Source: a virus. From it: a stretch of DNA of 44,560 bases. Shown here one piece after another: positions 7,765 through 35,325 of the stretch. Under the pieces are notes generated by a model. The model ran no database searches, was not told where the DNA came from, and saw nothing but the letters and a program-made list of their open reading frames with translations. Each line of letters begins with the position of its first letter. Positions within the stretch are counted from its first letter, which is position 1. A program made the position numbers and the translations under genes. The stretch lies in the IMG/VR virus record IMGVR_UViG_3300026512_000698, positions 1-44,560 of that record, one strand, 5' to 3'.

Positions 7765-8838
7765 ATGGCAATCAACACAAAAGATTACCCAAATAAAGTT
7801 GAAAACAATTTATGGTCGAACAAGAACTATACTATATTTTTCTATACATTTACATTTGAAAAGAAAAAATATAGAGGCTTAATAGACTTAGCAGATAAAA
7901 TCAAGTGGAATAAAAAAGATAAAATCTTCACAGCTCGTGCTGAACTTATGAAGATTAAAAATGATAAAAAAGAAAATATACTTAATGATGGTATTACTCT
8001 TGATAAGTACATGGATAGTTTCTTTGACTTGCGACCAGATACAAACACCACTAAAAAACTAAAGAGTCATTACAAAAGATATATTAGTGATATATGTGGA
8101 ATGAAAAAACTTGTAGATATTCGTCAGCTTCATATAAAAAGGAGTATTAAGTATCAAGAAGATGTAGGTTTAGCAGCTCGTACTATAAAACAAACTTTAG
8201 AGGTCTTATCTCCAGCATTTAAAAGTGCTATTGCAAATCGTGTTATATCTTTTAATCCTCTTGATGGAATATCTATAAAGCTTCCAAAAACTAAGAAAAT
8301 AGTAAGTGAAGCATCTAAAGAGTTAATAAAAATTCATAAAGCCATATATGAAGAGTTTGCTACTGATCCTTTTTATTTAGCATTCTTCTTATTTGCTTTG
8401 CAAGGTAGAAGAAAGAGTGAGATATTTACTCTCAAGTGGGAAGATGTGAGTATTGACAATTCTTACTACATACTTAGAAACACTAAAAATAATGAAGAGC
8501 AAAAAATATTCTTGTCTGATATAATGAAAAAACAACTTAGCCAAATACCAAAAGTTAGCGAGTGGGTTTTTACATCAAGAAGAACAGGCTCTCATATAGT
8601 AGATGTTAGAAAAAGGGTTGGTAAGTTAAAAACTAGATTAAAAGATGATAGCTTTGGTATACACTACTTAAGAAATGTTATTGTTTCTGCTATGGCGGAG
8701 CAAGGCTTAGAGTCTATGCACTTAAGTGGAGCATTAGGACACAATGACCCAAATACCATAAAAAAATATCTTACTATGAACTATTTAAAATCTAGTGAAA
8801 TTGCTAGTGGGGTTATTGATACTATTGTTGGTAAATAG
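7765..8838 (+). CDS. int: Tyrosine integrase of element 2
   Basis: 357 residues, homologous to the integrase at 854 along its whole length. Catalytic residues are seen in QGRRKSE (Arg), NTKNNEE (Lys), HYLRNV (His, Arg), LGHNDPN (His) and KKYLTM (Tyr). An AGGGA ribosome site is present. It lies directly inside the shared attachment site, pointing into the element. It should insert the large prophage at the same tRNA core used by the satellite. Confidence 0.95.
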   Translation: MAINTKDYPNKVENNLWSNKNYTIFFYTFTFEKKKYRGLIDLADKIKWNKKDKIFTARAELMKIKNDKKENILNDGITLDKYMDSFFDLRPDTNTTKKLKSHYKRYISDICGMKKLVDIRQLHIKRSIKYQEDVGLAARTIKQTLEVLSPAFKSAIANRVISFNPLDGISIKLPKTKKIVSEASKELIKIHKAIYEEFATDPFYLAFFLFALQGRRKSEIFTLKWEDVSIDNSYYILRNTKNNEEQKIFLSDIMKKQLSQIPKVSEWVFTSRRTGSHIVDVRKRVGKLKTRLKDDSFGIHYLRNVIVSAMAEQGLESMHLSGALGHNDPNTIKKYLTMNYLKSSEIASGVIDTIVGK

Positions 8839-15409: not shown

Positions 15410-16258
15410 TTATATCTCCTCGATTGTGATTTTGTAATTTATATCGTTTGAGTGATTAATTCTTTGTCCATTTACATCTACACGAATAGCACCCTCAATA
15501 TCTCCCCTGCATATAGAGATAAAAGCACCATCATCATTTTGTGTACCAAATCCATAGCATATAAGTTGTTTTTTCCTTTTACTCATTCTCTTCGCAAATC
15601 CCTCATCACTTTCTGCATTTTTATGTGCAGCTATACCCTCACGAGTAATCTCTTTATTTAAATATTGCTTATATACTTCTTTTTGTATTACCTTGTCTTT
15701 TACTCTTGCTAACTCTTCTAAAACAGACAACCCTATATCATGCTTCGCAACTTCAAGGTCTTTTACTATCTCATCATCTAACTTTAAGCATGAAAAAGCT
15801 TTAGAGATATATGTTTGAGATTTACCAAGAGTATCAGCGAGAGCACCTTTTGTTTCATAGTTACCACTTGCCCAAAGCTTACCAATATGCACAGCAGTTT
15901 CAAATGCTGTTAAATCATCTCTTTGTATATTTTCTATAAGTGATAACTCTAAAACTTTTAGATCATCTTCAACCTCTATGATATGAGCTTTAATAGTAGG
16001 AGCTTGTAACAGCTGGTGTGCTCTATATCTTCTTTCGCCACTTACTATCATGTATCCATCATCTCTTTTGACTACAACGATTGGCTGGAGTAAACCATCT
16101 TGGCTTATCTCTTTAGCAAACTCTTCAAGATTGTTAAAACTCTTTCTAGGTTGTTCTGGATTAGCATACACTTTAGATAGCACCAGTTCTTTAAACGGAC
16201 TCACTCCGTCTATGCGTGTTTTACCACTTACTACGCTGTTAAGCTTGTCTAAGTTCAT
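15410..16258 (-). CDS. parB: ParB-family partition protein
   Basis: 282 residues. The N-terminal ParB/Sulfiredoxin domain is clear: NPEQPRKSF, LLQPIVVVKRDDGYMIVSGE and ERRYRAHQLL (CTP-binding box), then LIENIQRDDLTAFETA. A helix-turn-helix follows (ALADTLGKSQTYISKAFSCL, about 137-158). The C-terminus differs from chromosomal ParB. It should bind a centromere site and spread along DNA to guide segregation by ParA. The gene start overlaps the ParA gene by 20 nt, so the two are coupled. Confidence 0.9.
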   Translation of the reverse strand: MNLDKLNSVVSGKTRIDGVSPFKELVLSKVYANPEQPRKSFNNLEEFAKEISQDGLLQPIVVVKRDDGYMIVSGERRYRAHQLLQAPTIKAHIIEVEDDLKVLELSLIENIQRDDLTAFETAVHIGKLWASGNYETKGALADTLGKSQTYISKAFSCLKLDDEIVKDLEVAKHDIGLSVLEELARVKDKVIQKEVYKQYLNKEITREGIAAHKNAESDEGFAKRMSKRKKQLICYGFGTQNDDGAFISICRGDIEGAIRVDVNGQRINHSNDINYKITIEEI

Positions 16259-16853
16259 CTCTGAGTCCTCTTATCTCATCTTGTGCTATTTTATGTGAAG
16301 TGTCAAATACGCTAGAGCCAACACCAATAGAAGTTCTATATATCTTTCTACTTCGTATAACAGTATCTAGGAGTTCTATGTCTGAGTTATTTTGTATAGC
16401 TTCTTTTATGATGTCAAAGTTTTTAGTAAGTGGGTGTATGTTGTTGAGAACCACATAGGCTTTAGTATCAAGTACCATATCTGTTAGTATATTTTCAAAA
16501 GTTTTAAATCCTAAAACTTCTGTAATGCTATCTGAGATAGGTACTACTACTTTGTTACTCATATCAATAGCTGTTCTGTTGATGTCGCTATCAAAACCAC
16601 CAACATCAACTATGGTGTAGTCTGTTTGTTTTTTTGGCTTTAACAGTACTTGCATAACTTCTGCTACTGTTTTAGGTTGAAGTACTTCAATAGAATCAAC
16701 ACCACGAATTTCATTTATAAAAAATAATGTTTGTTGAAAATCTAAATCTACCAAAGTAACTGTTTTACCAAGCTCTCTAAATGCAAATGCTAAGTTCCAA
16801 GCTATTGTGCTTTTTCCAACACCGCCCTTTGTGTGTCCTACTGTAATAATCAT
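16239..16853 (-). CDS. parA: ParA-family partition ATPase
   Basis: 204 residues, the short form without an N-terminal DNA-binding domain. Deviant Walker A is HTKGGVGKST (7-16), Walker A' VDLDFQQT (35-42) and Walker B TIVDVGG. These ATPases form gradients on the nucleoid and move ParB-bound DNA. With parB downstream it makes a complete partition operon. Its promoter contains the 15-bp box found before the structural operons and a TTAAGTGGTA inverted repeat. A partition operon in a prophage indicates extrachromosomal maintenance. Confidence 0.92.
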   Translation of the reverse strand: MIITVGHTKGGVGKSTIAWNLAFAFRELGKTVTLVDLDFQQTLFFINEIRGVDSIEVLQPKTVAEVMQVLLKPKKQTDYTIVDVGGFDSDINRTAIDMSNKVVVPISDSITEVLGFKTFENILTDMVLDTKAYVVLNNIHPLTKNFDIIKEAIQNNSDIELLDTVIRSRKIYRTSIGVGSSVFDTSHKIAQDEIRGLRDELRQA

Positions 16854-16926: not shown

Positions 16927-17520
16927 CTACCAAGCTCTCTTGTTTTTCCCTTGGGAAATTTCCTCATTCGTTACTGTTGCATACCTAGCTGTCGTGGCAA
17001 TATCTTTATGCCCTATATCTTGTCGTATATGCTCCAGTGATAAACCAAGTTGATGAGCAGTAGTGATATAACCACTCCTGAAGCTGTGAGTGCTGTAAAG
17101 TGCTCCAAGTGTTCTATGTATAAAAGTATTCATCATAAGCTTTAATGCACTTACCGTCATAGGTTTATCTGAATTATTTTTAGCAAATAGATAACATCTA
17201 CTTTGTGGCAATATCTTTTTTAGGAGTTCAGCTTGTTTGCGATTTGAGTCAAAGCTAATAAGTCTTGGCTTATCAGTCTTCGTATTATTTGTTAAAGAAA
17301 ATTCATTGTTTTCTATCATATACTCAACATCATCTACATGTAGAGATGTTATTTCACTAACTCTACATCCAGTAAGATATAGAAGTGTAAAAGCTCTATA
17401 TAGTTTTGCTTTTGTTGTTTCTTGCATATCGTAAGAGTTTTCAACTGCTCGAATAAGCTTTTCATACTCTTGTTTAGATATAGGCTTCTTGGCTCTTGCT
17501 GTTCCTTTTGGTCTTGCCAT
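16927..17520 (-). CDS. Short tyrosine recombinase (catalytic domain only)
   Basis: 197 residues, lacking the usual core-binding domain. All catalytic parts are present: Arg in LTGCRVSEI, Lys in NTKTDKPR, His and Arg in STHSFRSG, His in IGHKDI and Tyr in TTARYA. Domain-only recombinases of this size occur on plasmids and may resolve multimers or invert DNA; a role at the partition locus, 73 nt upstream of parA, fits a dimer-resolution enzyme. It is distinct from the integrase at 7765. A parS-like palindrome lies in its last codons. Confidence 0.88.
   Translation of the reverse strand: MARPKGTARAKKPISKQEYEKLIRAVENSYDMQETTKAKLYRAFTLLYLTGCRVSEITSLHVDDVEYMIENNEFSLTNNTKTDKPRLISFDSNRKQAELLKKILPQSRCYLFAKNNSDKPMTVSALKLMMNTFIHRTLGALYSTHSFRSGYITTAHQLGLSLEHIRQDIGHKDIATTARYATVTNEEISQGKNKRAW
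16945..16958. promoter_or_regulatory. parS-like palindrome 2, near parA
   Basis: TTTCCC-TT-GGGAAA, a perfect palindrome about 90 bp upstream of parA and inside the end of the recombinase gene. It shares 14 bp with the palindrome in the primase gene. Proximity to parAB makes it the best centromere candidate. Confidence 0.5.
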
Positions 17521-20617: not shown

Positions 20618-20977
20618 TTATATCTTTGACATCTCTTTAAATTGCTCAAGTCTTTTTATTATTTGTTGCACAAATTCATCAGGAGCATAAGAGATTAAAC
20701 TTATGATAGTCTGTAAATCTTTATTTGATTCAATCATATCTGCAATAGCAATATCATCATTATTTAATCTCATAGATCCTTTACCAGTTAAAAGCCATGT
20801 AATGTTTATATCTTTATCTTTTAGATGCACTAGTAAAGTTTGGATAACCACTTTCTTTTTACTTGACCAAGATTTTAAAGTATTGTAATCTAAATCTAAT
20901 AATTCTCCTACCTTCTTATTGGTGGAAACTTCAAAATACTGTTTTAATCTACCCATAATTTCATTAAATTCGTACAT
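20618..20977 (-). CDS. CI-like phage repressor (DNA-binding domain)
   Basis: 119 residues. IMGRLKQYFEVSTNKKVGELLDLDYNTLKSW and ITWLLTGKGSM match the bacteriophage CI-repressor helix-turn-helix domain. The usual LexA/S24 peptidase half is missing, so it is not a RecA-cleaved repressor, and induction must use an antirepressor or another route. It diverges from the plus-strand arm and probably binds the palindromes at 21000-21049. Confidence 0.82.
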   Translation of the reverse strand: MYEFNEIMGRLKQYFEVSTNKKVGELLDLDYNTLKSWSSKKKVVIQTLLVHLKDKDINITWLLTGKGSMRLNNDDIAIADMIESNKDLQTIISLISYAPDEFVQQIIKRLEQFKEMSKI

Positions 20978-20991
20978 TTATTATCCTTTTA

Positions 20992-21049
20992 TTGACAAAG
21001 TAGTATTTTTTATACTACAATCCTTATCTAGTTTAATCAATTATACTAG
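20992..21049 (+). promoter_or_regulatory. Right-arm promoter with operator palindromes
   Basis: TTGACA (20992-20997) and TACAAT (21016-21021), 18 nt apart, form a strong sigma-70 type promoter toward 21076. The perfect palindrome GTAGTAT-TTTTT-ATACTAC (21000-21018) fills the spacer. A second related dyad, CTAGT...ACTAG, spans 21028-21049. Repressor bound here would exclude polymerase. Confidence 0.7.
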
Positions 21050-21075: not shown

Positions 21076-21300
21076 ATGGAAAATAATTTTGAAACAGTAG
21101 AATTTATACTACCTGTAGCAAAGCCTGAGTTAGCGGAAATACTACAAGTATCAGTTGTAACTATTGATAGGCTCATAGCTGCTAAGAAGTTACCTCACTT
21201 ACGAGTAGGAACATCTATTAGATTTACTAAAGCTAACATAGAAGAGTTTATTTCAACAAATACTAGAGACTCAAAAAAAACAAATAACGGCGAAAATTAA
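21076..21300 (+). CDS. Excisionase/Cro-type HTH protein
   Basis: 74 residues. VAKPELAEILQVSVVTIDRLIAAKKLPHLRVGTSIRFTKANIEEFI is a textbook HTH_17 (Xis/AlpA/MerR-like) domain: helix-turn-helix, wing and a last helix. First gene of the right arm, so it is a candidate Cro-like switch or excisionase. Its TAATG end couples it to the next gene. Confidence 0.78.
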   Translation: MENNFETVEFILPVAKPELAEILQVSVVTIDRLIAAKKLPHLRVGTSIRFTKANIEEFISTNTRDSKKTNNGEN

Positions 21301-21929
21301 TGACTTACACTATGCTTCTCAATTTAGAGAAAATTAATGAATGGGACTTAAGTAAGACTACTTGTTTTGTTATGGGTGTATTTGCTGATTTAGAAAGTTG
21401 GGCTATAAAATATAAAACAAATAACGGCGAAAATGATGATTTTTATTATTTACTTTATCGAAACAAAATACTTAAAGATTTACCTTTTTTAGGTTCAAAG
21501 AGTTCTATATCTCGTTCGATTAAAGAACTAGAAGATAAGGGTATTATAAAATCAATCAATAAACATTCTAATCCTGCATACTGCTTAACTGAAAAAGGGC
21601 TAACATGGAAAAGAAATTCTACATCTAGTGAACCAACTCAAAAGCAAATTACACCTAAAACTAAAAAAAGTACATTATCACTTACAAAAAAACAAAGATT
21701 TGATGATGCTCCTTTGGAATATCAAAAACTAGTGTATCAAAAAGCTAATGAACATTGTAAGGCTAATAATATAGACACAAACGAAGTTCAAAAATGTATA
21801 GACTGGCATGTCTCAAAAGGAAATACTTTTGTAAATTGGTTAAGTGCATTTAGGACATGGTGTAGAAATTTGAAAAAATACAATCCAAATGATGGCGATA
21901 ACACAACTTTAGGTGGTATGAGTTTATGA
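21300..21929 (+). CDS. Putative replication initiator, winged-helix protein
   Basis: 209 residues. The N-terminal half is winged-helix-like (LGSKSSISRSIKELEDKGII, followed by AYCLTEKG). After a Ser/Thr/Lys linker (about 105-135) the C-terminal part ends FVNWLSAFRTWCRNL, like the DnaT/DUF-type domain of phage replisome organisers and of O-like proteins that load the helicase. With the DnaB-like gene downstream this suggests an initiator or helicase loader. The assignment is by pattern and context. Confidence 0.65.
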   Translation: MTYTMLLNLEKINEWDLSKTTCFVMGVFADLESWAIKYKTNNGENDDFYYLLYRNKILKDLPFLGSKSSISRSIKELEDKGIIKSINKHSNPAYCLTEKGLTWKRNSTSSEPTQKQITPKTKKSTLSLTKKQRFDDAPLEYQKLVYQKANEHCKANNIDTNEVQKCIDWHVSKGNTFVNWLSAFRTWCRNLKKYNPNDGDNTTLGGMSL

Positions 21930-22366
21930 TTAGATTATTAGATAACTTAGTGTTGTTAAAAGAGATAGATGAAATTAAGGGGGTTAAATATAACTCTACA
22001 AAATTAAAAAAATTATATCCAAATAAAATAGTTGTTATTAGACATACCTCATATATTTATAGAGATGTACTTTGTCAAATTGCTCAAAAGAATGCTACTC
22101 CACTAAATGACTACATACAGCTTGGAGAGTTCGTAGAACATGTTTGTATAAATAAAAGTTTAGTTAGAGAAAGAATATCTTTTATGGAAAAAACAGGTGT
22201 TAAATTTTTTGATTATATTATGGTTTCAAATATCCAGTTTATACGACTAGATGATGAGTTTAAATACCTACTACAAAATTTTCAACCTTTTTTAGCAAAC
22301 CTACAAGATGCTGGTAATTTACTTCATTGTAAATTATTAGGTGATTTAAAAATAGGATTTTATTAA
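21926..22366 (+). CDS. Hypothetical protein in replication operon
   Basis: 146 residues, coupled by ATGA at its start and TAATG at its end. Mixed alpha/beta with long hydrophobic helices (DYIQLGEFVEHVCINKSLVRERISF); one region may be a helix-turn-helix. No transmembrane segment. Not recognised. Confidence 0.65.
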   Translation: MIRLLDNLVLLKEIDEIKGVKYNSTKLKKLYPNKIVVIRHTSYIYRDVLCQIAQKNATPLNDYIQLGEFVEHVCINKSLVRERISFMEKTGVKFFDYIMVSNIQFIRLDDEFKYLLQNFQPFLANLQDAGNLLHCKLLGDLKIGFY

Positions 22367-22563
22367 TGCAAAATTCACAATGGTTAAATACTAAAACACT
22401 ACAAGAAGAGTTTGGAATAGCAGAGAGTACTCAAGCAAAGTATCGTGCTGAAAAAACTATACCCTACTCTAAGATAGGTGGGTTTATATTTTATTCCCGC
22501 GAGAAAATATACCAATGGTTAGAGAGACATAGTTTTGAAGCGGAGGGTTTAGTTTATGAATAA
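22366..22563 (+). CDS. AlpA-like HTH protein, homolog of the satellite regulator
   Basis: 65 residues: WLNTKTLQEEFGIAESTQAK, YRAEKTIPYSKIGGFIFYSREKIYQWL. The layout and several blocks (PxSKIG, YxRE, WL) match the 64-residue protein at 2816. It overlaps the helicase gene by 8 nt. It may be an excisionase or transcription switch. Confidence 0.75.
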   Translation: MQNSQWLNTKTLQEEFGIAESTQAKYRAEKTIPYSKIGGFIFYSREKIYQWLERHSFEAEGLVYE

Positions 22564-23905
22564 TATAGAAAATATCAGAGTATTAGTTCTTGCGTCATTA
22601 TTGACTGTTAATGAATTTGGAGCAATTGACTTAAATATAGTTATGTCAAGTGGGATAAATAAAGAGTTCTTTGAAGATGAATCTCAAAGGGTTATGTTTG
22701 AAGTGATTAGCGTTTGCTATGAGGGAAATATTACTTATGATGATGGTATTATCATGAACTATATGAAAAAAGCAGGGATATCAAATCCTGAAAATATAGT
22801 ACTTAATATTATGGCTCAAAAACAAGTACCTCAAAATACACTCTTAGAATATATAGCATTTTTAAAAGAGTCCTACCATAAAAAAATGCTTCATGTGTTA
22901 AATTCAGAAATAGCAAATATGCTTCAAGATGAAAATCTAAGTGCTGATGCAATTACTCAAACTATGCAAAATACAATAGATGGTTATGCCAGTTTAACTA
23001 AAGGTAATTCTACTAAAAGATTAAGTGAAGTTAGAAAACTAAGAAAACTACAGCCCCCAGCTCAAAGGATTAGAACATACATACCTTTTATTGACACGGT
23101 TCTTACTGATAAGCATGGAGGTAAGGGTATTAGAAATGAGGGTTTATTTTTCATAAGTGGTAAAAAACAAAGTGGTAAAACTTTTGTTCTCACAAGACTT
23201 ATAGAGAATGTGTCGAGAGAGCATCCTGTAATGTTTGGAAGTATGGAATTTGGACAAGATTTATATGATGAAAATATAGAACAACAACAAGAAGATAAAC
23301 ATTTTGAGGGAAACATAGAAAATATATTTACCTTTGATGATATTTATGATGTTAATGCCATTATGGCTGAGATAAGACTTCAACATAAGCTTTATGGAAT
23401 TAAGTTAGTTGCTCTTGATAGTATGATGAGAATGACAAATAATAATCCTGACCTTAAAACAGATGAACGAAGAATATCTGAGATGTTTTCAAAACTTGGA
23501 AAACTTTCAAAAGAGTTAAAGATCCCAATTATTGTAGTAGTACAGTCATCTAAAGAGGATTTAAAATCGAGCATAATTAGTGTTAAGGGGAGTATGAACG
23601 CAGACCATGAGGCTTATGTATGGTTTCATCTTTCAAAAACAAAACCTAAAGAACCTGATGATGAGATGAGAAATGTTGTATGGAATAAAAATAAAGATAC
23701 TCATAAGCACCCTATTCAAACTTTAATGTTTGTTCCACAAACAAGTGATTTTTATAGAGTTGAATTAGATGAACATGGTAATGCTGGTAAAGCCCTTGAT
23801 AAATTTAGAAAACCACCTGTAAAAGTAGTTGAAACAACTTATGAAACTATACCTAGTAATCAAGACCAAGGCACTCAAGATACTTTTGATATGCCCCAAT
23901 TTTAG
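22556..23905 (+). CDS. DnaB-like replicative helicase
   Basis: 449 residues. An N-terminal DnaB-type helical domain (about 1-120) is followed by a RecA-like ATPase: Walker A ISGKKQSGKTF (about 200-210), a Glu-containing strand GSMEFGQ, and Walker B LVALDSMMRM (about 284-293). SSKEDLKSSIISVKGS resembles the DnaB motif that follows the sensor. It should unwind DNA at the fork, in partnership with the primase at 11976. A low-complexity tail is rich in Thr, Gln and Pro. Confidence 0.85.
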   Translation: MNNIENIRVLVLASLLTVNEFGAIDLNIVMSSGINKEFFEDESQRVMFEVISVCYEGNITYDDGIIMNYMKKAGISNPENIVLNIMAQKQVPQNTLLEYIAFLKESYHKKMLHVLNSEIANMLQDENLSADAITQTMQNTIDGYASLTKGNSTKRLSEVRKLRKLQPPAQRIRTYIPFIDTVLTDKHGGKGIRNEGLFFISGKKQSGKTFVLTRLIENVSREHPVMFGSMEFGQDLYDENIEQQQEDKHFEGNIENIFTFDDIYDVNAIMAEIRLQHKLYGIKLVALDSMMRMTNNNPDLKTDERRISEMFSKLGKLSKELKIPIIVVVQSSKEDLKSSIISVKGSMNADHEAYVWFHLSKTKPKEPDDEMRNVVWNKNKDTHKHPIQTLMFVPQTSDFYRVELDEHGNAGKALDKFRKPPVKVVETTYETIPSNQDQGTQDTFDMPQF

Positions 23906-23910
23906 GAGAT

Positions 23911-23982
23911 ATGATGAAAGCAAGTGAAAAAAGAAAACTTAGAAAAAAAAGAAAAGCTAGACTAGAAAAAGGAGAAAAGTAA
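23911..23982 (+). CDS. Very basic 23-residue peptide
   Basis: ORF MMKASEKRKLRKKRKARLEKGEK with an AGGAGA ribosome site 6 nt upstream, filling the gap between helicase and the next gene. More than half its residues are Lys or Arg. It ends one base before the next ATG and contains that gene's ribosome site (AAGGAGAA), so it may act as a translated leader. Real but function unknown. Confidence 0.5.
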   Translation: MMKASEKRKLRKKRKARLEKGEK

Positions 23983-23983
23983 G

Positions 23984-24847
23984 ATGAAAATTAAAAAGAT
24001 AAATGCACATACAGTTAAACTAGATGGACAAGAGTTATCACTAAATGATAGTGAGAAAATAGTTAAAAAAGCTGGTACTGACTACTATATCCATAAAAAT
24101 AAAAAACAAGATGAGTTTATTATTTCAGAAAATAAAAAACTTAAAATGTATAAACTAGTTGGTGGTTTTCACTATGGTCTTATTCCTGAAGAGTTTACAA
24201 CTATAAACAATATTAGCAAAAAATCCTCTAAAAAAATAGCTGGTATAAATCACTACTCTATCTGGAGTAAAAAACATAGACCACTATGTGAACCAGAAGG
24301 GATGGTATTTATTCCTAAACTAAAGATTTGGATAGATATATATCTGCTAAATGCAGACCATAAAGTAAATGGCTCATCAAAAGCTAATGCGATTATAGCT
24401 AGTGGAGATAATTACAATGGTAGAAAAATACCAGTAGATGAAGAAGACTTAAAAGGTAATGTTGTAGATGCCATTGCTTCACATCATAATAAAAGACTAC
24501 TGACTCAAAAAGAGTTTAGAAAAGCTATGTATGGTGTAAAAGAAGGTTTGAGTGCTGAGGACTTAGATGATGGAACAACTAAACATATAAAAGACTTTGT
24601 ATCAAGATACGGGATAGAACAAGCAACTGGTGTTCAATGGATATGGAGTAAAGATTTATATAATTCTAGTGATAAGTTAAGGGTGCTTTTGGGTGGCGCT
24701 CGTGGCAGTGGCGTGCACGCAGGTTCTCGTGCCTCGGATTGGAGCTACTATGTTTGGAACTCGTACTGGGACATTGGTGTGCGTCTGTCATGTGACATGA
24801 AACTTAAAAATGAAGCGAAAGCGAATTTAAAGACAAAGGATAAATAA
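23984..24847 (+). CDS. DGR variable protein 1 (C-type-lectin-like domain)
   Basis: 287 residues, homologous through most of its length to the last 300 residues of the fibre at 27556 (shared AGTDYY, GGFHYGL, YGIEQATGVQWIW). The variable segment (about residues 233-270: LLGGARGSGVHAGSRASDW ... WDIGVRLSCD) is the end of a CLec/formylglycine-enzyme-like fold used by DGR target proteins. It has no fibre stalk. It lies between helicase and SSB-like genes, about 5 kb from the retroelement, and joins the next gene by TAATG. Likely a displayed binding protein; the partner is unknown. Confidence 0.85.
   Translation: MKIKKINAHTVKLDGQELSLNDSEKIVKKAGTDYYIHKNKKQDEFIISENKKLKMYKLVGGFHYGLIPEEFTTINNISKKSSKKIAGINHYSIWSKKHRPLCEPEGMVFIPKLKIWIDIYLLNADHKVNGSSKANAIIASGDNYNGRKIPVDEEDLKGNVVDAIASHHNKRLLTQKEFRKAMYGVKEGLSAEDLDDGTTKHIKDFVSRYGIEQATGVQWIWSKDLYNSSDKLRVLLGGARGSGVHAGSRASDWSYYVWNSYWDIGVRLSCDMKLKNEAKANLKTKDK
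24682..24794 (+). repeat. DGR variable repeat 1 (VR1)
   Basis: 113 bp aligned without gaps to the template repeat (29834-29946). Ten differences are at template adenines (A to T, G or C). One, near the 3' end (TCG to TCA), is not. Eight of the nine template Asn codons have changed (to Ala, Ser, His, Asp, Ser, Tyr, Tyr, Asp). Confidence 0.95.
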
Positions 24848-25407
24848 TGGCAAACATAGGAATAGTTTATAGAGATAGTTATAAAAAAGAGGGTAAAGAT
24901 ATACCTATAATCATGTTAGATATTCGTACTATTAGTATTAGAAAAAAGTTTACTATCAGTGTAAATAAAAATAAATATCCTGATGGTGTAGTTAATGATA
25001 ATATAGTACAGGGTAAAGAAGACTATCCTGATTATCATATTTGGTGCAATATGGCAAATCGTGGAGAGACTGGAAGAAGTGAAATAGTTGGAAGTATTAA
25101 AGATGCTGTTGCTGAGGGTAGCGGACTCAAATATAAAAGATGTAAAATATTTGACCCTTTTATCTCTGAAAAAAACATATATTTTACTTTATTTAGTGTT
25201 GATGAAGATAAAAAAAGAGATGCTTCTCATGTTTATAATGTTGTGGCTCAACCATATCAAAAACCACAAAGTGAGTATAACAATACTCAAAATGAACAAA
25301 CAGCACAGCCTAGCTATGATGGACAAAATATTCCAACTACATACGAAACAGTAGATAAAAACAGTGTACCAAGTATAGATGTTGATGAAGATGAGATTCC
25401 ATTTTAG
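24847..25407 (+). CDS. SSB-like single-stranded DNA-binding protein
   Basis: 186 residues. The N-terminal part could form an OB fold but is divergent. A Gln/Asn/Pro-rich linker (about 135-170) leads to the tip DEDEIPF, which is the classic acidic SSB C-terminus that recruits replication proteins. It would protect single strands during phage replication. It is coupled by TAATG to the variable protein gene upstream. Confidence 0.75.
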   Translation: MANIGIVYRDSYKKEGKDIPIIMLDIRTISIRKKFTISVNKNKYPDGVVNDNIVQGKEDYPDYHIWCNMANRGETGRSEIVGSIKDAVAEGSGLKYKRCKIFDPFISEKNIYFTLFSVDEDKKRDASHVYNVVAQPYQKPQSEYNNTQNEQTAQPSYDGQNIPTTYETVDKNSVPSIDVDEDEIPF

Positions 25408-25417
25408 GTTTTAACAA

Positions 25418-26971
25418 ATGAATGAAATACAAAAAGCTTTAGCTGCTAAAAAAGCAGAACCTATACGACATGCTTTATGTCGTAAGGATTTACTTCATTA
25501 TGGTCGTTATATATTTGAAAAAGAATATGAAACTCCACTTCTTGAAGCATGGTATCACGAGCTACTATGTAATGCATTGATGAAAGTAGCTCACGGAGAA
25601 GTCACTAGACTTATTATAAACATACCACCAGCCTATGGAAAAACAGAGTTTGCAGTAAGACTTTTTGTGTCTTGGTATCTTGGTAATTTTCCAAAAAAAA
25701 GAGTTATTTATACATCATATAGTGATGACTTAGCTACTAAAACACCTGCCGAAGTTAAAGAACTTATCGTATCTCCATCTTATAAAAAAGTATTTAATAA
25801 TATTAGTCTAGGTAGAAAAACAGCAGATAAAGAGTGGTATTTAGAGTCTAAGGGTGGTATGTTTTCTACTACTGTTGGTGGAGGTATTACAGGTTTTCAC
25901 GGGAATATAGTGATAATAGATGATCCAATGAAAGCGATAGAGAAAAACTCTAAAGCTACAAGAGACTTAGTTACTAATTTTTATAAAGGTTCTATTACTT
26001 CAAGACTTAGAAAAGATGACCCTAACTCTGCCATAATAGTTATTATGCAAAGGCTACATGAAGATGACTTAGTTGGGTATCTACTTGAAGAGGAGCAAGA
26101 TATATGGACTCATATAAATCTAACAGGGATAAACCCTAAAGAAACTATATATGATTTTTTTGATTATTACTACAAGCGTGAAGCGTATGAGCCTTTGAAC
26201 CCTCACTTTGAAACAGTGCAAAAGCTGGAACAACAAAAAAAAGTAATGAAAGAAGATTGGTATTCTCAATATATGCAAGACCCTAGAACTATTGAGACTG
26301 GGTATGTAAGTGATAGTGATTTTGTTAGTATAGCTTCGTGGGAACTTAGTGAGGATAATAAATGTATCAGCATTGACCCTGCTCAATCAACAAAACAAAC
26401 AAGTGATAATAGAGCCATATCTTTAGTTGGAGTAGCACTTTCCCCCGAGAAAATAGAGCTATTTAATGTTTACGGAACATGGTTTGGAAAATGGGGTAAT
26501 GAAGAATTTATAGAACAAATCATACAAGTAATGATTGAAAATAGTGGTGTACCTGTATTTATGGAAAGCAGTGGTGGTGGTATTATTACAGAACAATATC
26601 TCAAAAAAGAGATACAAAAAGTAAATTACAAACTTAAAACTGAGGGTAAATCTATCCTTACCAATAGAGTTACCTTATTTAATCCAAAAACAAAAATAAG
26701 TAAAAATCAAAAAATTGACCAAAGTATTACATGTCTGCAAAATCATCAAATTCGCTTTGTTGTTGGGGGTCATGGTCAAGAACAAGTAAAAAAAGAGTAT
26801 CTAGGGTTTCATCCAGAAAAAGATTCTAAAGAAGATGACTGTATGGAAACTATTGCTAATGTAGTTGTAAATAATTTTGTATCTCCAAAAACTAAACCCA
26901 AAGATAAAACTATCAACAATCCAAGCGTTATGAGAAATTTTACTCAAAGAAGAATTGGTTGGAGAATTTAA
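25418..26971 (+). CDS. terL: Terminase large subunit
   Basis: 517 residues. ATPase domain: Walker A NIPPAYGKTEF (about 68-78), Walker B IVIIDDPMK (about 164-172), coupling motif after SAIIVIMQRLHEDDL. The RNase H-like nuclease domain starts at ISIDPAQST with Asp near 320. It cuts and pumps DNA into the prohead. No adjacent small subunit is recognised; the expected slot upstream holds SSB-like and DGR target genes. The 31-bp late-promoter element begins at its stop codon. Confidence 0.93.
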   Translation: MNEIQKALAAKKAEPIRHALCRKDLLHYGRYIFEKEYETPLLEAWYHELLCNALMKVAHGEVTRLIINIPPAYGKTEFAVRLFVSWYLGNFPKKRVIYTSYSDDLATKTPAEVKELIVSPSYKKVFNNISLGRKTADKEWYLESKGGMFSTTVGGGITGFHGNIVIIDDPMKAIEKNSKATRDLVTNFYKGSITSRLRKDDPNSAIIVIMQRLHEDDLVGYLLEEEQDIWTHINLTGINPKETIYDFFDYYYKREAYEPLNPHFETVQKLEQQKKVMKEDWYSQYMQDPRTIETGYVSDSDFVSIASWELSEDNKCISIDPAQSTKQTSDNRAISLVGVALSPEKIELFNVYGTWFGKWGNEEFIEQIIQVMIENSGVPVFMESSGGGIITEQYLKKEIQKVNYKLKTEGKSILTNRVTLFNPKTKISKNQKIDQSITCLQNHQIRFVVGGHGQEQVKKEYLGFHPEKDSKEDDCMETIANVVVNNFVSPKTKPKDKTINNPSVMRNFTQRRIGWRI

Positions 26972-27018
26972 AACTACCAAATAGACATACCACTTAACAC
27001 TTTTTAAAAAGCTAAAAT
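26968..27018 (+). promoter_or_regulatory. Structural-operon promoter 1 with 15-bp box
   Basis: A 31-bp sequence (26968-26998) is identical to 35243-35273. It ends in GACATACCACTTAAC (26984-26998); exactly 14 nt later comes the -10 hexamer TAAAAT (27013-27018). The box replaces the normal -35. It drives the 27047 gene and the DGR/fibre unit. Confidence 0.7.
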
Positions 27019-27046
27019 TGTTTTCATAATCAAATCAAGGAATTTT

Positions 27047-27555: not shown

Positions 27556-29454
27556 ATGGGTTTTATACAAAATATGAATGAGCTTTATCTATCTTTAGAT
27601 AAATTACTTTTGCTTCACGATAGTCTTGGAACTATTTCTTTAACTGATAAACAACTTGCAGATATAGCAAATATTCAGAACAATATAGATGTAGTCACTT
27701 CGGTAAATGATAATAATGCAGATATAACTGTTGTTGCTCAAAATCTTGCTGATATTATAAATGCTAGTAAAATAATAAACATGACTGTCTCTACTGGTGC
27801 TACTGGAACTTCAGTTTCATGGGATGCAAATACTTCTGTTTTGACTGTTCCTATTGGCGCTACTGGTGCAACTGGAAATAGTGGTCAAGATGGCAACGAT
27901 GGTATAAATGGCTTAGATGTAGACCATGTTTCTAAAACAGACGGAACAGGAGAAAGTGGTACTACTGACACATACACTTTATGGCAAGACTCAGATGAAA
28001 CTGTATCACTTGGGACTTTTGAAGTTTACAATGGTGCTGATGGTGACGGTGCTGGTGACATGTCGAAAGACACATACGATACTAGTGATAGTGGAGTAGT
28101 TGATAACTCTGAAAAAGTAAATGGACTTACTGTAGAAACTGCTGTGCCAGAAAATGCAGTTTTTACAGATACAGTTACTTCTCTAGTTGATGCTCTTGAC
28201 TCAAGTTCAACATCAGAAGCATTAACTGCCAATCAAGGATTAGTTCTAAAAGGATTGATCGATAACCTAAATAGTTTAATAGCAAGTGATGATACAACTC
28301 TTGATGATTTACAAGAGATAGTTGATTTTATAAAAATAAATAAAGATACTTTAGATTCTTTAGCAATTGCTAGTATATCTGGTTTATCTGATGCCCTTGA
28401 TGCCAAGATGGATGCAGATGCAGTATCATCATCTGTTGATTTTAAAAAACCTAATACTAATGTTCTTTTTACAAAAACAAACCCAGCTGATTTCACTATA
28501 GCAGTAGGTTTTAAAGTTACAGTTGGAACTACTGCCGTAGAGATAACAGAAGAACAAACACTAAGTTTAGATGACAATCTTGATACAGGGACAAAAGAGG
28601 CTGGTACTGACTACTATGTTTATGCAAAAGCAGATAGTACATTTTATATTAGTGCTGATAAAACTATAACAGCTGATAGACTTATTGGTGGTTTTCATTA
28701 TGGTTTAACCGCTGAAGATGAAGCAAAAACTGGAAATAAAACAGATAATGATATGGTCGCTATTCGTGGTATTAACAAATATTCATTTTGGGATTTGAAG
28801 TTTAAGGCTATTGCTGGAAATGATGGAATGGCATTAGTTGGCACTAAGTGGTATGACATATATTTAACAAATAGTGAGCATATCACAAAGGGTACTTCAA
28901 AAGCTGGATTACTTATATCTGGTGGTACTACAGATAACGGTCGTGGAGTTCCAAAAATACCATTAGCTTATGGTGGTGATGGAGATGTTGATTATGGAAA
29001 GCTGACTTGGTTTCAAGTTTGTGAGATTGCTAAATCACACGGTAAAGAACTTATAGACTATGCAGAATTTCCAACTATTGCCTATGGTGTTGATGAGGGC
29101 AAATCATCTGATACTGATGACTATGAAACAACTGCTGGAAAAATTGAACACTACTCTCATCTTACTTCAAAATTTGGTATTGAGCAAGCTACTGGGGTTC
29201 AGTGGATTTGGGGTAAAGATGTTGGCGGTAACAGAGATGAAGATAGTACATCATGGGGATGGAGAGACAAAGCAGATTCAAGAGGTCAAATATATGCACT
29301 TCATGATAATCACATTACGGCGGTGCTGTTGGGTGGCCATCGTGGCAATGGCGTGCACGCAGGTTCTCGTGCCTCGGTTTGGAACTACTATGTTTGGAAC
29401 TCGAACTGGCTCATTGGTGTGCGTCTGTCGTGTGCCCACATGGAACTTGTGTAG
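27556..29454 (+). CDS. DGR variable protein 2: collagen-containing fibre
   Basis: 632 residues. Order: helical N-terminal segment for virion attachment (1-80), collagen-like G-x-y stretch (GATGATGNSGQDGNDGING, about 101-119), a Ser/Thr/Asp-rich shaft with a helical segment (about 205-285), then from about 345 the domain shared with variable protein 1, ending in the variable CLec segment (587-626). The architecture is that of a receptor-binding fibre whose tip is diversified. The avd gene follows in the same transcript. Confidence 0.9.
   Translation: MGFIQNMNELYLSLDKLLLLHDSLGTISLTDKQLADIANIQNNIDVVTSVNDNNADITVVAQNLADIINASKIINMTVSTGATGTSVSWDANTSVLTVPIGATGATGNSGQDGNDGINGLDVDHVSKTDGTGESGTTDTYTLWQDSDETVSLGTFEVYNGADGDGAGDMSKDTYDTSDSGVVDNSEKVNGLTVETAVPENAVFTDTVTSLVDALDSSSTSEALTANQGLVLKGLIDNLNSLIASDDTTLDDLQEIVDFIKINKDTLDSLAIASISGLSDALDAKMDADAVSSSVDFKKPNTNVLFTKTNPADFTIAVGFKVTVGTTAVEITEEQTLSLDDNLDTGTKEAGTDYYVYAKADSTFYISADKTITADRLIGGFHYGLTAEDEAKTGNKTDNDMVAIRGINKYSFWDLKFKAIAGNDGMALVGTKWYDIYLTNSEHITKGTSKAGLLISGGTTDNGRGVPKIPLAYGGDGDVDYGKLTWFQVCEIAKSHGKELIDYAEFPTIAYGVDEGKSSDTDDYETTAGKIEHYSHLTSKFGIEQATGVQWIWGKDVGGNRDEDSTSWGWRDKADSRGQIYALHDNHITAVLLGGHRGNGVHAGSRASVWNYYVWNSNWLIGVRLSCAHMELV
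29314..29434 (+). repeat. DGR variable repeat 2 (VR2)
   Basis: 121 bp aligned without gaps to the template 29826-29946. Nine differences, all at template adenines, including two silent third positions. Five of nine template Asn codons have changed (to His, His, Val, Tyr, Leu). The 3' end (GTGCGTCTGTCGTGTG) is identical to the template. Confidence 0.96.
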
Positions 29455-29472
29455 AGTGAGCGGAAGCGAACG

Positions 29473-29808
29473 ATGAATGATTCTAAGAATTTGATTATTA
29501 TTGAAAAGTATGAAAGCTTTTTAAATTACATCTACCCTCATTTACAACATATACCGAGGAAACATGGAATTTTAAAAGAAAGAATTATTTTAATAGTTTT
29601 TGAACAAACAGAATTATTTTACAAAGCTATAAAATCTAACCAAAAAAGTAAACTATATGAAGCAGATGCAAATTTAGCAAGTATTAGATACTACCTTAGA
29701 TTTTTAGCTGATGAAAAAAGAAAACTTATAAGTCAAAAGCAACACAATACTGCTGGTGTAAAACTAGCAGAAGTTGGTAAGATTTTAAATAGTTGGATAA
29801 AAAAATGA
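29473..29808 (+). CDS. avd: Avd, DGR accessory variability determinant
   Basis: 111 residues, all helical, with the sequence character of Avd four-helix bundles: IIEKYESFLNYIYPHL, IPRKHGILKERIILIVFEQT, a basic helix and RYYLRFLADEKRKLI, ending GVKLAEVGKILNSWI. Avd forms a positively charged pentameric barrel that binds the reverse transcriptase and template RNA. It sits between VR2 and the template repeat, the standard place. Confidence 0.88.
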   Translation: MNDSKNLIIIEKYESFLNYIYPHLQHIPRKHGILKERIILIVFEQTELFYKAIKSNQKSKLYEADANLASIRYYLRFLADEKRKLISQKQHNTAGVKLAEVGKILNSWIKK

Positions 29809-29825
29809 GTTTATGGGCGAGTAAG

Positions 29826-29946
29826 ATTACAGCGGTGCTATTGGGTGGCAATCGTGGCAATGGCGTGAACGCAGGTTCTCGTGCCTCGAATTGGAACAAC
29901 TATGTTTGGAACTCGAACTGGAACATTGGTGTGCGTCTGTCGTGTG
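29826..29946 (+). repeat. DGR template repeat (TR)
   Basis: This 121-bp segment is the adenine-rich donor for VR1 and VR2. It has nine AAC or AAT codons in the reading frame of the target proteins, set where the binding surface varies. It lies 17 nt after avd and about 170 nt before the likely start of the reverse transcriptase. Its 3' flank (after GTGTG) differs from the flanks of both variable repeats, which marks it as donor rather than acceptor. Confidence 0.96.
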
Positions 29947-30113
29947 AGTATAAGATATGGATATTGCTCTCATATATAGTTACGGCTTATATGGAGCGAC
30001 CTTATAAAATATGGTCAGCTTACTTGTCCAGCGAAAGCAAATACATTGAGAGGTCTGTAAAAGTTGGAGTAGCTTTAATAGTGAAAGAACAAGACAGCAT
30101 TAAAAGGTATATA

Positions 30114-31130
30114 GTGGGTAAAAAATACAAGATATTATTTGAAAAGATAATTGATATAGATAACTTAAGATTAGCATATAAAAAAGCTTTAAAAGGTGGC
30201 AATAGATATACAACTAGTCATCTAAAGTTTAAAGAGAACTTAGAGGCAAATTTATCTCTACTACAGGCACAGCTTGAGAGTGGAGTATATAGACATGGAA
30301 ACTATCATACATTTCTTGTATATGAGCCTAAAGAGAGATTAATTGCATCACTTCCATTTAGAGATAGAGTAGCACAACATGCTATCAACAATATTGTTGA
30401 GCCTATTTTTGAGAGCATGTTTTACTCAACATCTTATGCTTGTAGAAGCAATAAAGGCACACATAAAGGTGTTAAAGCCGTTCAAGCTAAGATAAGAAAA
30501 TTAGATAATGATGGAAGTGTGTATTATCTAAAGATGGACTTTAGTAAGTATTTTCATTCTATAAATACGGATATATTATTTAGAGAAATATCTAAAAAAA
30601 TTAGTGATGTAAAAGTGCTTAATCTTCTTAAAGGGTTTGTTAGTATTGACTCTAAGGGTATCCCTATTGGAAACTTACTTAGTCAATTATTTGCAAATAT
30701 ATATGGACATATCTTTGATAGATTTGTTAAAACAAAACTAAAAGCTAGATACTACTTTAGATATATGGACGACACGGTTATCTTAAGTAACTGTAAAAAA
30801 GAACTTGTTTTGTATCAACAGAAACTATACTTATTTATAAAGTTATTTATGAAATTAAAGTTTAGTAAGTGGTATATAAATGCAATATCTAAACCTTTAA
30901 ACTTTTTAGGTTATAGGATTTCACAAAATTATAAACTCATAAGAAAAGATAGTGTTGTTCGTGCAAAGCGAAAGATAAAAAGATATAAAAAAATAGATGA
31001 TGTACTAAGTTTAAAGCTATTTCTAGCTTCATGGCGTGGACACTTACGAAGTGCCGATAGTTGGAACTTAGTTAAATTTATAAACAAAGAGGAGCAATTA
31101 TGCAAGATGAAATTAGCGTTAAGCCGTTAG
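30114..31130 (+). CDS. DGR reverse transcriptase
   Basis: 338 residues from the GTG at 30114, which has an AAAGG ribosome site 7 nt upstream and gives the usual DGR-RT N-terminus (KKYKILFEKIIDIDNLRLAY). The frame is open back to 29793, straight through the template repeat; an ATG at 29991 is another option. Motifs: catalytic Asp142 in LKMDFSKYF, DGR-type IGNLLSQ (185-191), YMDD (217-220), GYRIS thumb-side motif. It copies template RNA, misincorporating at adenines, and the cDNA replaces VR1 or VR2. Confidence 0.95.
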   Translation: MGKKYKILFEKIIDIDNLRLAYKKALKGGNRYTTSHLKFKENLEANLSLLQAQLESGVYRHGNYHTFLVYEPKERLIASLPFRDRVAQHAINNIVEPIFESMFYSTSYACRSNKGTHKGVKAVQAKIRKLDNDGSVYYLKMDFSKYFHSINTDILFREISKKISDVKVLNLLKGFVSIDSKGIPIGNLLSQLFANIYGHIFDRFVKTKLKARYYFRYMDDTVILSNCKKELVLYQQKLYLFIKLFMKLKFSKWYINAISKPLNFLGYRISQNYKLIRKDSVVRAKRKIKRYKKIDDVLSLKLFLASWRGHLRSADSWNLVKFINKEEQLCKMKLALSR

Positions 31131-35242: not shown

Positions 35243-35293
35243 TTAAAACTACCAAATAGACATACCACTTAACCCATTTTTTCTCACTACAAT
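35243..35293 (+). promoter_or_regulatory. Structural-operon promoter 2 with 15-bp box
   Basis: The 31 bp at 35243-35273 are identical to 26968-26998 and end in GACATACCACTTAAC (35259-35273). Exactly 14 nt later is TACAAT (35288-35293) as -10. It drives the capsid/portal operon. Confidence 0.7.
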
Positions 35294-35325
35294 ACTTAAA
35301 ATAAAATGAAGTATAAGGATACAAA

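Follow-up and report, generated by a model that had tools for sequence, protein, structure and literature searches.

The DNA analyzed here (the window) comprises the 44,560 nt (44.6 kb) of virus record IMGVR_UViG_3300026512_000698; its close relatives are located in Sulfurimonas MAGs, and no relative was found in a plasmid collection. Its temperate-phage genes include three tyrosine-integrase genes, ParA/ParB, a primase, a repressor-like gene, an endolysin, a major head protein, and a portal. The combination of ParA/ParB with three integrase genes may point to a phage-plasmid or to a recombination island carried by a prophage. A DGR, made up of bAvd, the template TR, and a reverse transcriptase (RT), adjoins a tail fiber gene, which is its first target. 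The 5′ part of the RT ORF overlaps the TR and reads through it, and the true start of RT is probably downstream of the first position of the ORF. A preliminary description had placed a second, 287-residue target, referred to below as T2, about 5 kb upstream between genes for a DnaB-like helicase and an SSB-like protein, and this ORF was confirmed (Table 1).

Table 1. Features of the window and, in the last three lines, of related records
Feature	Position	Strand	Remarks
Tyrosine integrases	854-1909, 7765-8838, 16927-17520		
ParA/ParB	15410-16853	-	
Divergent repressor-like gene	20618..20977	-	phrog_27605, weak; beside early-type promoter
Early-type promoter	20992..21021	+	TTGACA-N18-TACAAT; dyad GTAGTAT..ATACTAC in spacer
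DnaB-like replicative helicase	22556..23905	+	
Basic ORF, 23 aa	23911..23982	+	between helicase and T2; also in relatives without T2
T2, second DGR target, 287 aa	23984..24847	+	ATG start; Mtd-like β-sandwich and C-type-lectin head
VR2, variable repeat of T2	24682..24795	+	10/11 differences at TR adenines
DGR target hairpin after VR2	24808..24828	+	AAATGAAGC-GAAA-GCGAATTT; GRNA loop, one bulged A
SSB-like protein	24847..25407	+	acidic tail ...DVDEDEIPF; NCBIfam SSB tail profile matched weakly (E 0.003), well under its cut-off
Terminase large subunit (terL)	25418..26971	+	last gene of the gap-free run of T2
Late-type box	26986..27035	+	CCACTTA..GCTAAAAT..CATAAT; after terL, ahead of fiber unit
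Target 1, tail fiber	27556..29454	+	collagen-like/fiber repeats and Mtd-like head
VR1, variable repeat of fiber	29314..29434	+	9/9 differences at TR adenines
Hairpin after VR1	29456..29471	+	GTGAGC-GGAA-GCGAAC
bAvd accessory protein	29473..29808	+	PF22296, E 5.6e-34
DGR reverse transcriptase ORF	29793..31130	+	RVT_1, E 1.2e-19; phrog_1423, E 3.7e-107
TR	29826..29947	+	template for both VR1 and VR2
Second late-type box	35261..35310	+	ahead of head gene unit
Longer T2s	L053:17698-18699; L209:9860-10819; L075:16588-17613		
Tad2-like anti-Thoeris gene	L161:9015-9434; records G250 (L142) and G254 (L149)		in helicase-SSB slot
RT of Sulfurimonas Faavne prophage	L008:17130-18139		several frames

VR2 differs from positions 29834-29947 of the TR at 11 of 114 nt; 10 of the differences fall at TR adenines (binomial P of about 1e-6 for this bias), and the other is a G-to-A change near the 3′ end. 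At that end VR2 shares with the window's TR the variant GTGCGTCTGTC; the T2s of the related phages L005, L007, and L008 have a different 3′ end. The hairpin that follows VR2 lies inside the coding end (24808-24847) and supplies the codons for most of the Lys-rich tail at the C terminus of T2. Because of its bulge the automatic search missed it, and the bulged-A hairpins of the window, L005, and L008 T2s were read by eye. Among the relatives examined, hairpins of the GTGAGC-GRAA-GCGAAC type follow the VRs of both targets and never the TR. In BPP-1, the source of the loop rule, a GRNA-loop hairpin directs retrohoming (Guo et al., PMC3240598). The BPP-1 stems are plain and GC-rich, whereas the VR hairpins here (29456-29471 in the window, and those of relatives) carry tandem G-A mismatches in the stem, as in GTGAGC-GGAA-GCGAAC. 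With a VR that differs from the TR almost only at adenines, a target hairpin, a C-type-lectin fold, and RT, Avd, and TR encoded in the same genome, T2 is established as a second target of this DGR.

It had also been proposed that T2, with eight of nine Asn codons diversified, is rewritten more than the fiber. The counts hold for the window (8/9 in T2, 5/9 in the fiber), but across seven phages the changed codons in T2 and fiber were 8/5, 7/6, 5/7, 7/8, 7/6, 6/4, and 5/6, and a generally greater diversification of T2 was rejected; it is a peculiarity of the window record.

T2 genes were found in eight phages: the window, L005, L008, OB8 (L007), G065, G232, G238, and, as a partial copy, G554. 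To compare templates, six T2 repeats were each aligned with the TRs of six phages, and mismatches at positions other than adenine were counted. Against their own TR, the repeats of OB8, G065, G232, and G238 had none, that of the window had 1, and that of L008 had 6; against the TRs of other phages the counts were 10 to 24. A slightly longer alignment gave 7 for L008 and 1 for G065 against their own TRs. The G554 repeat differs from its own TR at eight positions, all of them A. For OB8 and G554 the TR and T2 are on different contigs of one MAG, and the match between the repeats suggests that each pair belongs to one phage. Where both are on one contig, T2 and TR are separated by about 5 kb (window), 6 kb (L008), 7 kb (G238), 12 kb (G232), and 15 kb (G065). 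Since the repeats match their own TR and not those of other phages, T2 is rewritten in place, at distances of up to 15 kb. The matches show that TR reverse transcripts carrying mutations at adenines have replaced the VR of T2, independently in at least seven phages. In L008 the mismatches are concentrated toward the 3′ end, and frameshifts interrupt the reading of the RT, so this copy may be old or its assembly faulty; decay, programmed frameshifting, or assembly error could each account for the several frames of this Faavne prophage RT.

A structure prediction had been suggested for the N-terminal 200 residues of T2; prediction for T2 returned an Mtd head. Pfam finds mtd_2nd (PF21916, E 7.3e-6), and a profile of the T2s matched only Mtd in the PDB (residues 81-379, E 1.5e-26). 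The AlphaFold2 model has a mean pLDDT of 84, with a weak VR region (about 40 to 65 in places), and its residues 1-275 align with residues 64-380 of BPP-1 Mtd (1yu1) with a Z score of 25.2 and an rmsd of 2.7. T2 and the fiber agree at 42% over residues 14-231 and at 77% in the VR. The two had been said to share a C-terminal domain; they do, but what is common is the whole Mtd-like head, the mtd_2nd β-sandwich as well as the lectin. Residue 1 of T2 pairs with residue 64 of Mtd, whose N-terminal β-prism we take to be residues 1 to about 48. T2 is thus an Mtd head, with β-sandwich and C-type lectin but without the N-terminal β-prism.

In the fiber the same head is carried on a long shaft, the N-terminal part that is absent from T2, and the observation that T2 has neither collagen nor shaft was correct; a signal peptide is also lacking. 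The missing stalk by itself is a weak argument about function: collagen and shaft are also absent from BPP-1 Mtd, which is a receptor-binding protein of the virion. The lack of the Mtd β-prism is the stronger structural point. Instead of a shaft, the three longer T2s (G065, G232, and G238) have an N-terminal extension of about 35 to 60 residues, predicted in the G232 model to be a compact β-β-α unit; it matched no PHROG family (best E 0.06). The nearest named family of T2 is a tail protein (phrog_11262, E 1.6e-43), and a fold search of a viral library gave only two good matches, both Mtd-like or tail-fiber proteins. Searches of PADLOC, NCBIfam, and Pfam gave no match to a defense or anti-defense protein, and the VR residues gave no clue to the ligand.

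This homology is the basis of the main rival explanation, which we consider unlikely but by no means negligible: T2 could be a second virion receptor-binding protein, an Mtd-like trimer that docks on the tail or on the fiber head and serves as an independently diversified adhesin. The Mtd-head fold and the tail-protein family speak for it, as does the fact that Mtd itself is a stalkless virion protein; the absence from T2 of both shaft and β-prism speaks against it. The genomic context, described below, also bears on this explanation.

A phylogenetic tree of the seven complete T2s and 23 fiber heads, built with the VR left out, placed all T2s in one clade with support of 100/99, apart from the fibers. 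Profile scores separate the two groups as well (at least 519 bits for T2s, at most 266 for fibers). The dN/dS of the constant part of T2 is 0.12 to 0.27, which indicates purifying selection outside the VR; reading frames are intact in all complete copies, and the T2s have their own ribosome-binding sites. These results bear on the alternative that the preliminary description had itself named as fatal to its proposal, a misplaced copy of the fiber end made recently. In the form considered here the copy could also be decaying, and it would be kept only to receive or store VR sequence passively. VR and hairpin are indeed common to T2 and fiber, but the separate clade, the selection, the intact frames with their own ribosome-binding sites, and the recurrent early-region placement leave this alternative with very little probability, and a recent copy was rejected on the tree and the dN/dS values. 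T2 appears instead to represent a protein lineage that is old, distinct from the fibers, and located in the early/replication region. The OB8 T2 nests with those of L005 and L008 despite unrelated packaging genes, so T2 seems to move independently as a single gene. One record, G239, seemed to have this DGR but no T2. The record is the G065 prophage, truncated just past T2, and is therefore silent on absence of the gene.

Homologs in the same slot of related phages, another suggested check, were found: the window, L005, and L008 share the order helicase-T2-SSB-terL. G065, whose terL, capsid, and portal are 39%, 30%, and 33% identical to those of the window, has helicase-T2-exonuclease-SSB. In OB8, a lambda-type prophage with a GpA terminase and a lambda-type portal, T2 lies between a cII-like regulator and a replication O-like protein. 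G232, which has a tail sheath, shows T2, a 215-residue ORF, and a phage SSB, with exonuclease VIII further upstream; G238 shows an integrase, a 164-residue ORF, T2, a 182-residue ORF, and an exonuclease, with a primase in the same run; and in G554, T2 is a few genes ahead of a primase. For OB8, G238, and G554, placement in the early region is read from the gene neighbors. The T2-bearing phages thus have unrelated packaging and tail genes, with T2 mostly among replication and recombination genes, and the fiber target adjoins Avd/RT wherever both were seen. This pattern counts against the second-adhesin explanation, since T2 is repeatedly placed with replication genes, not tail genes, and since the part of an adhesin that docks on the tail should differ among tails as unrelated as those of sheathed G232, the GpA/lambda-type OB8, and the window type, in which a single T2 clade occurs. 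Docking onto a common fiber head would escape the latter argument.

Of the records of this phage group fetched by helicase or terminase, most are without T2, with nothing or with other small genes in the slot. In two sibling records the helicase-SSB slot holds a Tad2-like gene (PF11195, E 1.6e-22), of a family described as phage proteins that counter abortive-infection defenses by sequestering signal molecules (PMC12043709). T2 therefore occupies an accessory slot, within the early-type unit, that in siblings also holds known anti-defense genes. From these gene contents the slot appears to be an accessory site able to carry counter-defense functions, for which T2 itself is a candidate.

The genes from 21076 to 26971 follow one another with gaps of 10 nt or less, the gap between SSB and terL being 10 nt. 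Sites similar to the early-type promoter, which lies upstream of this run, occupy the same place in several, though not all, relatives; the region has no more consensus promoters than shuffled sequence, so only sites with counterparts in relatives were used. The late-type box after terL is recognizable in most relatives aligned there. Its profile scored 46 at 26986 (one of the training sequences) and 18.8 at 35261, compared with a best score of 6 to 11 in shuffled sequence, and found nothing comparable near T2 in the window, where the boxes are only downstream. The earlier claim that T2 is outside the late-driven unit of the fiber stands, with the conserved box at 26986 between the two. We infer that T2 belongs to an early-type unit that also holds terL; because terL shares the gap-free run, the run is not purely early, and a structural product from it is possible.

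The most likely reading, with chances that we consider about even, is that T2 is an early, soluble, diversified C-type-lectin binder acting in the cell. T2 would be expressed together with the helicase and SSB genes, all driven by a repressor-controlled early promoter, and, having neither a signal peptide nor a shaft for virion attachment, would stay in the cytoplasm. Its diversified face would capture a fast-changing molecule of the host or of a competitor, most plausibly part of a defense system or some other host factor inside the cell that is encountered early in infection. In an alternative that we think improbable, T2 would instead act outside the particle as a free head, released by lysis or joined to the fiber head in a heterotrimer, and would block or tune receptor binding, thereby avoiding debris or interfering with rival phages. 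The fiber head has the same fold and the same diversification chemistry, and early synthesis would allow T2 to build up. Against this, T2 has no secretion signal, and the diversified residues of T2 and fiber in the same phage are unlike, with only 0 to 2 shared non-Asn residues of 8 to 10, so a common receptor bound through like diversified residues is unsupported. Returning to the intracellular binder, a broader proposal, which we put forward tentatively and with somewhat less confidence, is that T2 may be the founder of a mobile family of early-expressed, DGR-diversified, antibody-like intracellular binders, directed against fast-evolving defense or competitor factors. Such a family would be distinct from tail diversification and would pass between phages as an independent gene.

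To our knowledge, the one phage DGR target studied experimentally is an adhesin. The window DGR resembles that of BPP-1 in its RT, Avd, TR, adenine-specific mutagenesis, C-type-lectin head, and GRNA-loop hairpin after the VR. BPP-1 Mtd, however, has an N-terminal β-prism, adjoins the DGR, and is a virion protein, whereas T2 has no such prism, is encoded 5 kb upstream amid replication genes, and is accompanied by a fiber that is a target in its own right. A published precedent for T2 is Quimbyvirus, in which one target lies by the tail fibers and a second, distal C-type-lectin target lies among nonstructural genes, beside genes related to defense, with a proposed role in phage-host conflict (Benler et al. 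2021, PMC8008677). Those are Bacteroides phages, in which the gene for the second target runs on the opposite strand and has methyltransferases, a nuclease, and a tRNA ligase as neighbors (PMC8008677). T2 differs, when compared by description, in its Mtd-type head, its replication unit, and its occurrence as one clade in structurally unrelated phages; the unusual strength of the present case is that the instances are repeated and phylogenetically separable. Remote targets rewritten in trans are also known from multicellular bacteria, as DGR-diversified putative antigen sensors with proposed non-adhesin roles in conflict (PMC10907252). These DGRs are cellular, with targets tied to NACHT/STAND and other conflict modules (PMC10907252); T2 is phage encoded and has no effector domain. 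A literature search of open-licence papers found no description of the T2 family. Remote targets escape the method of the largest DGR survey (Roux et al., PMC8144416) and are therefore probably under-counted; the cross-comparison of T2 repeats with TRs offers a simple test for finding more of them. A conserved, horizontally moving target that stays with replication genes across tail types would imply that hypermutation also serves an intracellular contest. The like arrangement in related phages suggests a rapidly varying binding protein with a role inside infected cells, and T2 provides a defined gene family with which this use of hypermutation can be tested.

Four sibling phages (L144, L146, L161, and L164) carry a DGR of another type at the same place, after a 168-residue gene, with an RT that is 34 to 39% identical and a different lectin target, as if DGR-fiber modules were swapped as a unit; no second target was found in their helicase-SSB slot. 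Two lectin targets rewritten from one TR are a feature that T2 and the fiber share with the tentaclin-type DGRs (PMC10743442), in which, as a difference, both targets are in the cassette. For the tentaclin phages, the tandem targets have been interpreted as receptor-binding proteins (PMC10743442), a further point in favor of a second adhesin. A tandem pair of lectin targets adjoining the TR was also observed in three other DGR phages, L081, L082, and L090.
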